DNA from: Picocystis sp. L7
Taxonomy: Eukaryota; Chlorophyta; Picocystophyceae; Picocystales; Picocystaceae
Assembly: GCA_020975725.1 (NCBI GenBank)
Contig: QXJR01000026.1
Location: 186,001 to 250,000 of the forward strand
Reading direction: 5' to 3'
DNA length: 64,000 bases
Part shown: positions 22,415 to 57,151 of the stretch, piece by piece
Numbering within the stretch: the stretch's first letter is position 1
Layout of the letters: each line of letters begins with the position of its first letter
Notes under the pieces: model-generated
The model's input: only the letters and a program-made list of their open reading frames with translations
The model's database searches: none
Told to the model about the DNA's origin: nothing
Translations under genes and position numbers: made by a program

Positions 22415-25400
22415 ATGGAGACGACGATGCGCATCACGTGCGGCGGCGCACGCACTTCGGAAGGATGGAGGAGGCGATGGGGAAGGCCGAAGGACGTGGG
22501 AAGGAAGGTGGAGGTCGAACACGGGACGAAGAAGACGGCAGGAAAGCCAATGCGGATCCGAGCGGCCCAAGGTGCGCGCGAGAGAGCCCAGCACGGACAG
22601 GAAAGGAACGCCAAACGGGAAAAAAAAAGGGAACGCGTCGGCGTGCGTGGAGAAAGGAAAGGAAAGGACTGACGGAAGAGGGAAACAGACGGAGATCGGA
22701 TCGAGTGGAACGAAGAACAAGGAGAAAAGAGCGGACTGTCGAGCTTCCTGGACGCCGTGCAAGCCTTGGACGACAGCATCGCGCAGGAGAAGCTGGCCCA
22801 AGAGAGAGAAGACTTCCTCTCCACAGGAAGAGGATTGCAGACCGCAGAAGTGGACCGAGACGAAGCATCCACCCTGACAACCGTGCAGGAAATGTTGAAA
22901 GCAGCCGAAAATGGAAACGTGGAAGAGGTGGAACGGCTGCTGAGACGCATCGAAAACGACGGCATCCAACCCGGACCACGCGCGTTCCATGCCTTGGCCA
23001 CTGCGGCCTCCGTCGCAGGAGATGCACAGGGCGCGATCGACGCGGTGCGAAGAGCGGTGGCAGGCGGCGTGCGACCCGTCGCCGACACCTACCTGATCCT
23101 GATGATGGCCTTCTTGGCGGAAGATGACCTACCCAGAGCAGAGAAGGTCCTGGCAGCCATGGGAAGAGCAGGGCATAGCACGCGGCTGGGATGGATCGCG
23201 TTGACGACCGCCTTGTTCAAAAAAGGGAAATTCGACGAAGCAAACTACCACTTCCAAGCTGGAAGAAGGCGTGGACTTCGACCCACCGCCGACCTTTTTG
23301 AAATGAGCATCAAGAGTCTGGTTCTCAAGCCGGCGGGGGACTTGAGCGGGGCGAATGGCAGGAAGTATGCGGCGCGTAGCGAGTTGGCATGCATGCGACC
23401 TGAAGGAGTGGAAATAGAAAGCAGGCACATCATCCCCATCGTTGAGGCGGAGGAAGGGGATGCTGGAATGCTGCATCACAGGGAAAGGCTGTATCCCTAC
23501 GTTGCAGATCTCACTGGACACAACGCGGGATACGCACCAGAAAACGGGCGCATCACCTACATCAATGGCAAACCGGTGGGAGGGACAAAGCTGGATGCGG
23601 AGGCTTTCCATGCCCTGATGAAGGTCGGAGCGGACTACGACCGACTGATCGAGGACATGGACATGTCACAGGTTCGACCCACCCCGATGACGTACGCCAT
23701 AGGTGTAGAGTACAGACTCCTTACGAATGGCCACATGCTTACAGAGAATGAAGTCCGTGACGCCTTCCTTGAGTTCAGGCGGATGCGTGCAGCAACCGCA
23801 GCCGTCGCCGAGGGCAAACACAGGGACATCATCCACAATGACAGGAGGTGCGCAGAGTTTCTAAAGGGAGGGAAGGGAGGAACAGCAATGCTTGATCCAC
23901 AGATGCTTACTGGATTTTTGAGGTCGCTAGCTCACTTGGGCAATGGTCACGAATTGCTGTATGTCTTGAACAGTGCTCTCGAAGACCATGTAGAGCTGGA
24001 TAAATATGCCTTTGCATCAGACCGTCGGAGTGAAGCAGAAATGACAGCCGCTTATCCAAAAAGTGTGTACAGCAGGGAACAGTGGTTTGCGTGGGCCGAC
24101 CATCGCTCTTGCCAGGGGCGCAGCATCATTACTAGCTGGCTGTACGATGTTTCCGGGAATCGTTGGCGTCCACCCCAACCTTCTATGGAGGACTTTGCAG
24201 AGGCCGTGTTCTCTGGAACAGGCAAGGAAGTTGCCGAGGCAGCGATAAGCACAGAGCCTGAAGTACCGATCACGCCACACGGCGACAAGACAGCAAGCAA
24301 GCTGACGGTTGCACAGATCAGGGAGGAGCTTCAGGCCCTGGGACTGAATCCTGAAGGTGTGAGGGCAGAAATTTACGAGCGACTGCAGGAAGCAAGGCGA
24401 GCAAACCCTGCTCTGATGAGGGCCATAAACCGTAGAAGAAAGGCCGCTGCAAGCAAAACTCGTAAGGCAAAGAACAAAGACGAGGAGTGGACCGGAGAGG
24501 AAGGTTACTATATTTACCGCTCTGGACGGGAAATTTTTGTGCCGGAGAAACAAGAGGAAGAGCAAGCTGCAGATGGTGAGGCTGCAGAAGACGATGATGC
24601 AGAGGATGCAGGGGATGCGGTGGATGAACTGGAAGTAGAGGACCTAGACGATTTGGAGGACGAAGATGACCTGGATGAGCTGGATGATCTCCCAGATGGT
24701 ATCATGTCAGCACAAGGGAAAGCCGAGACAGTGCTGAAGGGGATGGACGGCGAGGCGATTCCCTTGATTGAAAGCGACGTCGAGAAGGTTGCTAGATACT
24801 TTGGCTGGGAAACGGACATACGCTGGTCTGACGGCAGGTTGGCGTTGAAGGATTGGCAGTTCGCATACGTCAGTCTCGCATGTTGGTTGGATAGAGTAGA
24901 TGCTAGCACGCATTGCTTCCCCCTCTTCTACGGGAATGTTGGGGGATTGGTGGGTGGGTACAGGGATCGCATAATGTTCTTAGGAGGCGAGGGCCTGGAG
25001 CTATGGCGCGAAGGAGCAAAAGATCCATCCCTCAAGACATGGGGGTTGGAACTTGTGCTTGAAATTCTTGATACTGTCGTCCAGCTTGGCGGCAAGCCGA
25101 CGGTTGCAGATCTCCGGTGCATCTTGTTGGGGGCGGCTGGTGTAGAATGGGAGGCGGCAGGAGGCAGTGTAGTGCACTATTTAGAAGGGGGGCCAAACCT
25201 CAAGGCTGCTCAGACAGGACTGCAGTACATCTTGGACACCGAGCCAGCTGCAAGTAAGCAGGAAATGATGGAACTATTCGTGCTGGCTTGCAAGGCTTTT
25301 GTTGCCTGCAAAGATCTTGGAGGCGTTGAAGAATGTGTTGAGCTCATGCAGCAGACCAGTATTGAACCAAACGAGGACATGCTTCAGATGCAGAGAATCC

Positions 25401-31849: not shown

Positions 31850-32764
31850 GGCGCGCCAACGGACGCGAAATGGAAGCTTCGATCGTGCTTTCCCAAAGCA
31901 CGAACCCGTAGTGGATCTCGCCGATAACCGTACCGATGGGAACGCCCGTCCTGGGGGAGTTTCTTCTCGGAGGGGTGGCGGAGGTGGAGCCTTGGGTGTG
32001 TGTGGCGATGGCCAGGACACGGGATGCCGAACGGTGCGGTTGCGCGCATGGATTTCACGAAGCGGAGGCGTGCCTCGCGGACGAGGGAGTAGGATGGAGT
32101 CCCAGCTTGGACCGTGCGACGGTGGGAAGCCATCCGACCGGGAAGCCTGAGAGGAAGGGAAGCACGAGCCCGGGATCTCAGGAAGGTCCATGCGAACGTC
32201 CTTCCCGTATTCCGACGACGAACGCAAGGGTGATTGCTTGCGACGCAAGCAGGCGTGGATCACTGAGCTTGTCTTCCTGTCCTTCTTCGACACGGAAGGT
32301 GGTTGACGGACGGACGGAAGGTCCGCACCACCAACGTGGACGTCCATCGGGTCTCCACCGATCCGAAAGGGGAGTCTTAGTCGGACAAGTCGAGGATCGA
32401 CCCCGGTTCGTCCCCCATTCAATCCTACGGGTCCATCCGGGACAGGACCGTGCTCCACGTGGCTCCCACCCCCCCTTTCGAGATCGCGATCCACATATCG
32501 ATATCTTCGGTCCAGATCTCGATGCCTCCGCGGATATCCCTCCGCGGGTCGCGTCGTCGACCCCGAAATGCGTCCCCATACCCCGAGGGAGTTTCGAAGC
32601 ACCCGGTCGTGCCCCGCAGAGGAGGTGGGCGTGTGGCTGGGCCCACGAAAAAGGTCTTGCGTGTCGCATTCGAAGCATTGGTGGACACACGTCCAAGGCG
32701 AAGGCGACGTGCTGGGCGAGATTGAACGCGCATCGTGGAATCCCGCGCGTCCTCAGACGCGTGC
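31850..32764. other. Divergent promoter gap (FtsHi / STAR1)
   Basis: 915 bp of GC-rich sequence. It contains CGCAGAGGA at 32615-32623, about 140 bp before STAR1, and a TATCGATATC word near 32497. No gene seen. Confidence 0.5.
32615..32623 (+). promoter_or_regulatory. CGCAGAGGA motif upstream of STAR1
   Basis: Exact nonamer, 142 bp before the STAR1 ATG. Confidence 0.4.
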
Positions 32765-33472
32765 ATGACCCTGCCAGACGTGATACAGGCGGCCGGGGAA
32801 GGCACGAACGGCCACGGAGGAAGGCAAGTCGGGAAACCGTTCTTCCAAGTGAAGGAACTCTCGTGCCGGGTAGGGACGCAAGTCCTGCTCGAAAACGTCT
32901 CGTTTCAAGCTGAAAAAGGCGAAAGCGTGTTCGTGAAAGGACCCAGCGGAGTGGGAAAAACCGTCTTCTTGAAGCTTCTCGCACAGCTTGGACCCGTGGA
33001 AGACTCTACCGGTCAAGTGCTGCTACAAGGGAAGGCGCCGAAGGAACTAGGTATACCCGTCTGGAGAGCCAAGGTGTCCTACCTCTGGCAACAGAGAATC
33101 GCTCTTCCCGGGACACCCGTCGAAACCTTTGAAGAGATCAAGGCATTCGGATCTTTGCAGGAGTGCCACATTACGCCCCTGTCAGAACTGCTGTCACTCC
33201 TGGACCTTGAGGAAACGCTGTTGCATCAAAGCTGGAAGAGCCTCTCTGGTGGAGAATACCAAAGGATTGCATTGGCCATCGCCTTGGCCTTTCAACCAGA
33301 AGTAATCCTGTTGGACGAACCCACCAGCTCCCTCGATCCGGTAGCAACTGTCCTTGTGGAACAGCTATTGAAAGAGTCAAATTGTGTCAAGGTTTGGTCC
33401 ACACACTCTGAAGAGCAAATCCAGAGGGTTGGAGGGATCGCAATCAATTTTCCCCACAGAGTTGCTGTCTGA
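32765..33472 (+). CDS. STAR1: STAR1/FetA-type ABC transporter ATPase, first ORF of a two-gene unit
   Basis: 235 aa (E. coli FetA is 225). Motifs in order: Walker A GPSGVGKT (about residue 61), Q-loop LWQQR, signature LSGGEYQRIALA, Walker B VILLDEPTSSLD and the switch WSTHSEEQ. Plant STAR1 pairs with the permease STAR2/ALS3 in aluminium tolerance; bacterial FetAB exports iron. The stop TGA is at 33470-33472. The permease ATG follows after three bases (gcc) and lies in the same reading frame. The pair is therefore arranged like a bacterial operon, although its neighbours are ordinary nuclear genes. The ATG at 32765 is the first in frame. Confidence 0.93.
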   Translation: MTLPDVIQAAGEGTNGHGGRQVGKPFFQVKELSCRVGTQVLLENVSFQAEKGESVFVKGPSGVGKTVFLKLLAQLGPVEDSTGQVLLQGKAPKELGIPVWRAKVSYLWQQRIALPGTPVETFEEIKAFGSLQECHITPLSELLSLLDLEETLLHQSWKSLSGGEYQRIALAIALAFQPEVILLDEPTSSLDPVATVLVEQLLKESNCVKVWSTHSEEQIQRVGGIAINFPHRVAV

Positions 33473-33475
33473 GCC

Positions 33476-34483
33476 ATGGAATTTACGCAGTCAGTGGACA
33501 CAGGCCTTGCCATGCTCAACACGACGCTTTCGGCTACCGAAGCAACCAAGGGACCCATTTTCTTGGACGTGTCTGCCATCTACCTCACTTTCCTCCTGAT
33601 CGTGTTGGCATGCGGGCTGTCTTTCCACATTCAACTGGGCTTGGAGTTTCAGCTTTTGATTGCTTCTTTGAGGGCAGTGGTGCAGCTCACCATTCTGGGG
33701 TTCCTCTTGGTACCCATCTTCAAAGTGAATCAGATCTATGTTGTTCTGCCTTATTGCGTTTTAATGCTCATGATTGCTGCGAAGGAAGCAAGTGATCGGC
33801 CTGCATACCGATACAAGGGGATGTATTGGGACTGTTTGGCATCGGTCACAGCTGCAAGCTTGCCTATCATGGCGTACTCAGTCTGGCTGATTTTTCAACT
33901 GGACCCGTTTTGGGATGCCCGTTATTTCATACCAGTTCTTGGAATGCTCTTGGGAAATTCGGTTACAAGCGTGTCTGTGTCGCTGTCAAGGTCTTTGGAG
34001 GAATTTGCAGAGGCGCACGACAGGATAGAGTTCATGCTTTCCAAGGGAGCAGATAGGTGGGAAGCGGTGAAACCCGTGATAAGGCGTGCAGTCAAGATGG
34101 GATTGACCCCACTTATCAACCAGCTAAGCGTGATTGGCATAGTAGCCATTCCTGGCATGATGACAGGTCAAATTTTGGGCGGTACACCTCCACTACAAGC
34201 TGCGCGGTACCAGCTGGTCATCCTCTTCCTGATTGCTGGGTGCGGTTCAATAAGTTCCTACATAGTATTGATCCTTTCTCTCCACAAAATGATAGATTCG
34301 CACTTGAACTTGCGGTGGGAATTTTTGAAGAAGACCAAGAAAGGCCAGGGTGCCACCCCTCTTCTTGCGCATTGGTTGGAAATCCTTTGTTTGGGGACTG
34401 CACGCTTGCTTAGTCGTTTGCTTTGCATAGGTAAGCATCGCTCTCCAGATTCGGATAATGCATTGCGCCGCCCGCTACTGTAA
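33476..34483 (+). CDS. STAR2: STAR2/ALS3/FetB-type (UPF0014) ABC permease, second ORF of the unit
   Basis: 335 aa with about seven membrane segments, for example IYLTFLLIVLACGLSF, VVQLTILGFLLVPIF, IYVVLPYCVLMLMIAA and YQLVILFLIAGCGSISSYIV. UPF0014 signatures are present: LGMLLGNSVTSVSVSLSRSL, then AHDRIEFMLSKGA, and LSVIGIVAIPGMMTGQILGG near residue 220. It would form the transmembrane half of the transporter whose ATPase is encoded just upstream. The ATG context is gccATGG, a good initiation context. With only three bases between the ORFs, a separate promoter is implausible. The last codon overlaps a TGTAA word (ctgTAA). Confidence 0.95.
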   Translation: MEFTQSVDTGLAMLNTTLSATEATKGPIFLDVSAIYLTFLLIVLACGLSFHIQLGLEFQLLIASLRAVVQLTILGFLLVPIFKVNQIYVVLPYCVLMLMIAAKEASDRPAYRYKGMYWDCLASVTAASLPIMAYSVWLIFQLDPFWDARYFIPVLGMLLGNSVTSVSVSLSRSLEEFAEAHDRIEFMLSKGADRWEAVKPVIRRAVKMGLTPLINQLSVIGIVAIPGMMTGQILGGTPPLQAARYQLVILFLIAGCGSISSYIVLILSLHKMIDSHLNLRWEFLKKTKKGQGATPLLAHWLEILCLGTARLLSRLLCIGKHRSPDSDNALRRPLL

Positions 34484-55517: not shown

Positions 55518-56197
55518 CGCGGACGTCGCTCGGCTATGGCGAACCTTTGGACGCATGTGGGCACCACACCCGTTTGAGTTACGTAAACGGTTACGGTTAC
55601 GGGTGTCGGGTGGGGGAAGGACGGGTGTGGTCTTGGACGGTGCAACGGACCTTCGTCGGCTGCCTTGGCTTCGAGCTTGGGCAGGTGTGAGACGCGGATC
55701 CGAACACCGGACGTGCGGAGAGGGCTTGGATCCGGGCCCAGGTGCAGGTGTCGACTCCACGTGTGCAGGAGCCGCACGCCGTTTCCACCTTCCGAGGCCA
55801 ATCGCTTCGTCGAAGCCGTGGCTGGCCCGTGCCGTCCGGGGTACCGGACCGTACGGAGTTGGGAACGGGTTCTTCCCTTCTGCCCGGTCAACCTTTCCCT
55901 TTCGTACCCGAGAGCTCCACCGGGAGGTCCTCCCTTTCCCGTCCGGTGGTGGGACGCGTGTGGGCGTTCCCTGTCCCATCGACTGGAACGGTTTCGAAGC
56001 ACACGTCCTGGTTCGAACTGGACGACGTCTTCGACGAAAAGGTGGACGTGCTTCGGACGGGAAAGACCGCGAAAGGGACGAACGTGGACCGTGGAAGGCT
56101 CGAAGGACAGGAGAAGAAGCAGGCGGGTGAACCAGCGGACGTCGCAAGCAAGGAAGGGCTCGGGCTGGGCTGCTGGGCTCGAAACGTGTTGGCCGGG
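55518..56197. other. Divergent promoter gap (PAT1 / EamA transporter)
   Basis: 680 bp. TTAC repeats at 55579-55600; otherwise nothing recognised. The frame of the EamA gene is open back to 55742, but the residues look random. Confidence 0.5.
55579..55600. promoter_or_regulatory. TTAC triple (12- and 6-bp spacing) before PAT1
   Basis: TTACG at 55579, 55591 and 55597; the first two are 12 bp apart, as in the TTAACC pairs. It lies 62-83 bp upstream of the PAT1 ATG on the opposite strand. Confidence 0.45.
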
Positions 56198-57151
56198 ATG
56201 GTGGCGGAAGGGAGGCTCATCAGCGTGTCGCCGATCAAAAACCACCTGGCTTGCATCGGCGCGTCCTTGGCGTTCTCCATTGGGGTGCTCTACACCAATG
56301 TGACAATAGGAGGATCGCACCACGTGCATCCGCTCATATTCAACTTGTACCGACAGCTCTGTGCAAGCTTGATCTTGCTTGCCGCGAGCCAAGAGGTGGA
56401 ATCCATTAAACCAGATCGAAAAGACCTACCCCAGTTGCTGCTTCTAGGGTTTTTACTTTTTCTAGATCAGATCGGGTTCATGAGCGATATGGCACACAAA
56501 GGAGGGCTGCCCTCCATATGCTTGCACGCAGCGGTGCCAGCGATCACCGCCATACTGGCCCTGCTCTTTAAAGTGGAGCAACTTTCATGGAGCAGGATGC
56601 TGGCAACGACTGTAGTTGTCGCAGGAGCACTAATGGTTAGCATCGGGAGCACGGGAGCATCGGCGATAGACGGGGGCACGTCGACCGGGGCTATGTATTC
56701 TTTGGGAAGCTCAATCGCACAAGCTGGGTATTTACTGCTGCTGAAACGAATCGTGGCAAGGTATCCTCCTTTAAGCACAACTGCGTGGGCCTTTCTAGTC
56801 TCTTCTTTGTGGACTACAGTGGTTGCGGCAACGGCAGTGCCTTTTGGTAAGCAATGGATGCTCCCTAGGAAAGCCACGGGCCCTCTCGCGTACTGGGCTT
56901 TGATAGGATCTTGCTGCGTGTATGTTCTCTACGGGATAGCATGCAAAGCAATGCTCTCCACACAGGTGGCTCTGTACGGATCCCTCATTCCTGTAGCCGG
57001 CCTTTTGTTTGCGTTACGAATTATCGATTACGTGCCAGTGTGGAGTTTCGCTGGAGTGCTGCTGGTCGTTTCGGGTATTGCGTGGTCCTTTGGTTCTAGG
57101 TCAACTTCGAAAGTTACTGCAATGAGCCTCGAAAAGGATGAAGAGGCATGA
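56198..57151 (+). CDS. EamA/DMT-family transporter
   Basis: 317 aa with ten predicted membrane segments in two EamA halves, for example LACIGASLAFSIGVLYTNVT, LPQLLLLGFLLFLDQIGFMS, MLATTVVVAGALMVSIGS, FLVSSLWTTVVAATAVPF and WSFAGVLLVVSGIAWSFGS. The line PSICLHAAVPAITAILALLF (end of TM4) and the second-half repeat around ALYGSLIPVAGLLFALRII are typical for drug/metabolite transporters such as WAT1-like proteins. The substrate cannot be read from sequence. The ATG at 56198 precedes TM1 by about 15 residues; a longer leader is possible. AATAAA lies 56 bp after the stop. Confidence 0.88.
   Translation: MVAEGRLISVSPIKNHLACIGASLAFSIGVLYTNVTIGGSHHVHPLIFNLYRQLCASLILLAASQEVESIKPDRKDLPQLLLLGFLLFLDQIGFMSDMAHKGGLPSICLHAAVPAITAILALLFKVEQLSWSRMLATTVVVAGALMVSIGSTGASAIDGGTSTGAMYSLGSSIAQAGYLLLLKRIVARYPPLSTTAWAFLVSSLWTTVVAATAVPFGKQWMLPRKATGPLAYWALIGSCCVYVLYGIACKAMLSTQVALYGSLIPVAGLLFALRIIDYVPVWSFAGVLLVVSGIAWSFGSRSTSKVTAMSLEKDEEA

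Follow-up and report, generated by a model that had tools for sequence, protein, structure and literature searches.

Background

The subunits of the land-plant STAR1-STAR2/ALS3 transporter are encoded by separate genes. Bicistronic nuclear genes are nevertheless already known from green algae, and PMC11291117 describes 35 leaky-scanning bicistrons in Chlamydomonas and 41 in Auxenochlorella, mostly with short first ORFs. Leaky scanning for such genes was demonstrated there with reporters. The output of ORF2 in Auxenochlorella was inverse to the strength of the ORF1 start, and when a methionine-less GFP served as ORF1, the restoration of a single AUG reduced ORF2 to background (PMC11291117). One pair covered there, CDC26-TTM3, is a deeply conserved bicistron that was first described in land plants (PMC11291117). 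Here we compare with these systems a green-algal locus in which STAR1 and STAR2 lie next to each other, and propose that it is probably one nuclear bicistronic gene for the ATPase and permease of an ABC transporter, with the second ORF translated by leaky scanning.

The STAR1-STAR2 locus

The window, by which we mean the whole 64-kb stretch of DNA that was analysed, contains the features listed in Table 1. The positions and common reading frame given for the two ORFs in the original prediction proved exact to the base on rechecking. The ORFs are 3 nt apart on the plus strand, and their shared frame carries little weight since it would arise by chance one time in three.

Table 1. Features of the STAR1-STAR2 locus and its neighbours (window coordinates)
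Feature	Position	Strand	Remarks
5' ATG-free stretch before STAR1	32569..32764	+	ATGs at 32568, then 32765; covers some or all of the 5' leader
ORF1, STAR1/FetA-type ABC ATPase	32765..33472	+	235 aa; ATG 32765; TGA 33470-33472; start context GTGC-ATG-A
Inter-ORF gcc	33473..33475	+	also supplies the STAR2 context GCC-ATG-G
ORF2, STAR2/FetB-type permease (UPF0014)	33476..34483	+	335 aa; ATG 33476; TAA 34481-34483
FtsH-type gene		opposite	upstream of the STAR1-STAR2 pair
Ribosomal L19 ORF			downstream of the pair
Gene with AA_kinase and aldehyde-dehydrogenase domains			downstream of the pair

Pfam assigned ORF1 to ABC_tran (2.1e-25) and ORF2 to UPF0014 (4.5e-74), which is the make-up of a STAR1-STAR2/FetAB-type transporter. 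The top NCBIfam models were FetA and FetB, with scores far below the curated cut-offs in both cases (117.8 vs 292 and 119.3 vs 410 bits), by which neither ORF belongs to the FetA or FetB equivalog. Judged by eye ORF1 reads as a whole ATPase, and we take GPSGVGKT, LSGGE, ILLDEP and STH to be its Walker A, signature, Walker B and H-loop motifs, respectively. The permease had no sequence relative in the PDB at E up to 1. When the assembly (20.5 Mb in 30 contigs) was searched, UPF0014 gave a single match. STAR1 gave 44 ABC matches, its own locus at E 5e-154 and the next at 3e-14 with 32% identity, so that one STAR1-grade ATPase was found. Bacterial contamination was considered as a source of the pair and rejected because the contig is 1.19 Mb long, the neighbours include the FtsH-type and the AA_kinase/aldehyde-dehydrogenase genes, an intron-bearing CDC26 is present on another contig, and STAR2 groups with green algae. 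The sole tRNA gene found in the window is a tRNA-Ser (tga) at 23161-23255 on the minus strand.

Absence of ATG between the two start codons

The most telling feature of the locus, and one missing from the original prediction, is the absence of ATG between the two starts. The STAR1 and STAR2 ATGs are 711 nt apart, and positions 32768-33475 hold no ATG in any frame of the plus strand. No ATG-free gap in the window is longer, whichever the strand, and this one ranks second among 8420 ATG gaps in the window and 20 sampled 10-kb stretches (264 kb, 10 kb of these N, hence 254 kb readable); the sole longer gap in this sample is of 798 nt and opens with a 58-aa ORF. At the ATG density of the window, 11.3 ATGs would be expected inside ORF1 and none is observed (Poisson P 1.2e-5). 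When the protein was held fixed and synonymous codons were redrawn, a mean of 3.3 out-of-frame ATGs resulted, with P(0) = 0.013, and the value was 0.008 when ORF1's own codons were permuted. Against these two expectations, ATG is avoided by both the amino acids and the codons of STAR1. Start-codon depletion before ORF2, by which a leaky-scanning bicistron of green algae is judged, is therefore found here.

The same scan of ATG gaps turned up 13 further ORF pairs. Elsewhere in the window (55555-57148, plus strand), 643 nt free of ATG precede an EamA-type transporter ORF at 56198. This stretch at 55555 was considered as a second case and not counted, its 191-aa ORF being without a Pfam match at E 0.01.

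The nucleotides at -3/+4 are T/A for STAR1 and G/G for STAR2, and in a crude context matrix made from 94 long ORFs of the genome the two ATGs fall at the 64th and 96th percentile, respectively. The second start is clearly strong; the weakness of the first is half supported, by the -3/+4 rule alone. A 66-aa ORF lies immediately upstream (32568-32768, plus strand), ATG-free inside and without a Pfam match, and its TGA overlaps the ATG of STAR1 (ATGA). This is a possible upstream ORF, which would compete with the STAR1 start if the leader extends to 32568.

As a positive control we found CDC26-TTM3 in the same genome (L086, 1218-2097), its ORFs overlapping by 4 nt. The CDC26 exons inferred from the sequence (1218-1271 and 1352-1483) give a joined protein that matches ANAPC_CDC26 at 1.2e-11, and the TTM3 CYTH ORF begins at 1480. 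All three ATGs between the CDC26 and TTM3 starts are within the inferred intron, so the spliced CDC26 ORF would be free of ATG, a design like that of STAR1-STAR2. FAM32A, a partner in another known bicistron, had no match in the genome search, and the control query was likewise without one.

Linkage and methionine content in green algae

Synteny in related algae had been put forward as a check on the original prediction, and the pairing of the genes is indeed kept in some relatives. From 48 STAR1 and 57 STAR2 rows typed from lists, six STAR1-STAR2 pairs have longest contigs of equal size, which argues strongly, if indirectly, for a single contig carrying both genes. The locus tags of one pair, in Parachlorella kessleri, follow each other directly (007705, 007706). 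In another relative STAR1 (P0306) and STAR2 (P0003) carry the same MMETSP transcript number and neighbouring gene numbers, on a contig of 2402 nt. In none of the six pairs does the STAR1 protein carry Met after residue 3 (one of these proteins, P0326, is partial, at 151 aa). The STAR1 and STAR2 rows of Apatococcus lobatus are on contigs of differing size. Single gene models in Myrmecia (P0009) and Trebouxia (P0060) join STAR1 to STAR2, and because the ATPase end is absent from both they are probably bicistrons that were mis-annotated as one gene. P0026, from a eukaryote-like source, joins the two domains in one protein but in reversed order, permease first and then ATPase.

At the protein level the AUG void is conserved: the STAR1 relatives P0122 (90% identity) and P0123 (71%) have no Met past the aligned start. 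The family was gathered by profile search with the best 120 matches listed; the rows used to build the A1 profile had no Met, which may bias it towards Met-free matches. Among the matches listed, 59 of the 72 green-algal-type STAR1 rows have an ATPase core without Met (mean 0.42 Met), compared with 13/70 bacterial FetA (mean 2.29) and 15/159 other ABC ATPases (mean 4.06). The green count omits P0121, which is the window's own STAR1, as well as P0129 and all listed rows from P0304 onwards other than P0306, these being partial or not clearly of green type. From the bacterial count, five of 75 ATPases that lack the Walker A pattern were removed. The green label relies on named members (Chlorella, Coccomyxa, Parachlorella, Volvox and others) and on the ATPase tree, a quick-method tree made without P0251, P0253, P0299 and P0303, in which a branch with support 93 separates 68 of the 72 green rows from the rest. 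The permease served as a control and showed no such depletion, with Met counts per 200 aa of 8.0 for 28 green STAR2 rows (picked via the STAR2 tree from the 120 matches listed) and 8.8 for 80 bacterial FetB. Over the ATPase tree, green rows change Met more slowly than bacterial rows (2.03 against 3.73 changes per unit length) but change L, I and V 1.5 to 2.3 times faster.

Core Met is present in some green rows, including those of Dunaliella (5), Polytomella (3), Gonium (2), Tetradesmus (1) and Apatococcus (1), and the Volvox STAR1 rows have none. Given the bacterial fraction, a lack of Met in any single ATPase is not rare by itself. Moreover, some Met-free rows of the Volvocales are of unestablished STAR2 linkage, and ancestry could therefore explain part of the depletion. 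On the sequences compared, Met depletion and STAR1-STAR2 linkage appear not yet tied to each other.

Translation of the second ORF

It had been predicted that STAR1 and STAR2 form a co-expressed bicistronic unit, and this is supported by their 3-nt spacing, by the shared MMETSP number, by five further pairs with equal contig size and by the presence of CDC26-TTM3 with a like design. A single capped mRNA would begin upstream of 32765. Some of the scanning ribosomes would initiate at the ORF1 ATG, which has no purine at -3 and no G at +4, and the remainder would pass through ORF1, which offers them no further AUG whatever the frame, and initiate at the GCCATGG of ORF2. With no extra start signal in STAR1 at which scanning would halt before STAR2, one mRNA probably yields both proteins, which may then assemble with each other. 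Selection for a clear scanning path could have left STAR1 without internal Met in most of the green algae seen. The methionine-less reporter ORF1 seems to have a natural counterpart in STAR1.

Leaky scanning, reinitiation and read-through were all left open in the original prediction. The first of these is favoured by the depletion of ATG over the whole of ORF1 and in all frames, and the other two lose ground in that neither predicts it. Reinitiation past the STAR1 stop, which would also give STAR2 from a bicistronic mRNA, might be aided by the 3-nt gap, and in yeast an 80S reinitiation route has been induced for bicistrons (PMC11952965). However, it gives no reason for ORF1 to have lost its ATGs, and according to PMC11291117 reinitiation drops as the ORF gets longer and the algal reporters showed the opposite behaviour; we consider it improbable.

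It is likewise improbable that STAR1 and STAR2 are two ordinary genes, with a STAR2 promoter inside STAR1 and an AUG void owed to chance or ancestry. The Met-free bacterial FetA cores are in keeping with this reading, as is the modest P(0) of 0.013 obtained when out-of-frame ATGs are counted by themselves. Against it, the void is bounded exactly by the two start codons and takes in the out-of-frame ATGs, the depletion is wide among green STAR1 rows but absent from STAR2, and both proteins have one transcript number in one relative. Read-through of the single UGA into an ATPase-permease fusion, for which the one frame with one stop between the ORFs and the joined models in Myrmecia and Trebouxia could be cited, is very improbable, since neither the AUG void nor a strong second start would be expected from it, the two models without an ATPase end look like annotation across a bicistron, and 0/75 bacterial ATPase-permease loci are one ORF. 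The frame sharing that prompted the idea is probably incidental. Leaky scanning along one mRNA thus remains our preferred reading.

Origin of the gene pair

The search of genome contigs yielded 433 relatives, of which the best 80 were listed, all bacterial; among viral contigs there were 54 pattern matches and no relative. A same-strand ATPase match was present at 75 of 80 bacterial FetB loci. Counted by match positions, the ATPase comes first in 72 of these 75 and the order is reversed in three, with a median of 6 nt from the ATPase stop to the first permease-matched base, in agreement with the claim that bacteria have this pairing as the fetAB operon. This gene order makes an inherited bacterial operon possible, though unproven. 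Nine of the 12 best-scoring bacterial loci are common to ATPase and permease (Spearman 0.76 over 75), and those scoring best for both subunits are chiefly from Myxococcota/Deltaproteobacteria and Planctomycetota. A quick STAR2 tree separates green algae, a Chlat1-tagged row on a long branch and four other non-bacterial-looking rows from the bacteria with support 98; the fungal row P0018, also on a long branch, is on the bacterial side. The Chlat1 row (P0037) is presumably from the streptophyte alga Chlorokybus. In this tree the window sequence is placed next to the core chlorophytes, together with P0003 and P0004, and its alga would be of prasinophyte grade.

One transfer of the operon would suit the gene order, the shared best loci and the STAR2 tree. 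We therefore offer, as a tentative scenario that is possible rather than probable, that the green lineage acquired a bacterial fetAB-type operon a single time, no later than the base of the Chlorophyta, and has kept it operon-like since, with leaky scanning replacing the bacterial translation of the second gene. The cost would be the purge of every AUG and internal Met from an ATPase of ~235 residues across much of the phylum, and if this is true an ATPase no longer linked to its permease would be free to acquire Met again.

Comparison with known systems

According to a review, chlorophytes lack orthologs of STAR1 and ALS3, and the genes may have been transferred in streptophyte ancestors (PMC11528361). 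In our profile searches STAR1 and STAR2 homologs were common among the chlorophyte proteins in the matches listed, which conflicts, at the level of homologs, with the absence stated in PMC11528361. The land-plant STAR1-STAR2/ALS3 transporter has the same two subunit types as the alga, in a comparison that took in the Chlat1 row and no land-plant row. With the bacterial fetAB operon the alga shares homologous subunits and an ATPase that comes first; unlike it, the algal pair is on a eukaryotic nuclear contig, the green rows are one side of a branch, and the scores fall below the FetA and FetB cut-offs of NCBIfam.

Neither STAR1 nor an ABC transporter was found in the main text of PMC11291117, as distinct from its supplements, and a literature search, with supplements and most subscription papers outside it, found no paper on a STAR1-STAR2 bicistron among those listed. 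The pair resembles the bicistrons described in PMC11291117 in its short gap, an ORF1 shorter than ORF2 and ATG depletion before ORF2, and perhaps in a better ORF2 context. It differs in the length of ORF1 (708 nt), about twice the medians of 357 and 291 nt given there, and in having zero ATG where the observed/expected medians before ORF2 are 0.49 and 0.43. STAR1 and STAR2 are two subunits of one transporter; REX1S-REX1B is named as another pair acting together (PMC11291117). CDC26-TTM3, found in plants and green algae, is alike in its ATG-free ORF1 design and unlike in that its ORF1 is short (61 aa) and spliced and its partners differ in function. STAR1-STAR2 thus adds a long first cistron whose make-up appears to have been shaped by the need for ribosome passage. 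A translation mechanism would in this way exert on a protein a pressure that is measurable, as Met content in linked and unlinked STAR1, and the pair suggests how an operon from bacteria might persist once inside the nucleus of a eukaryote.
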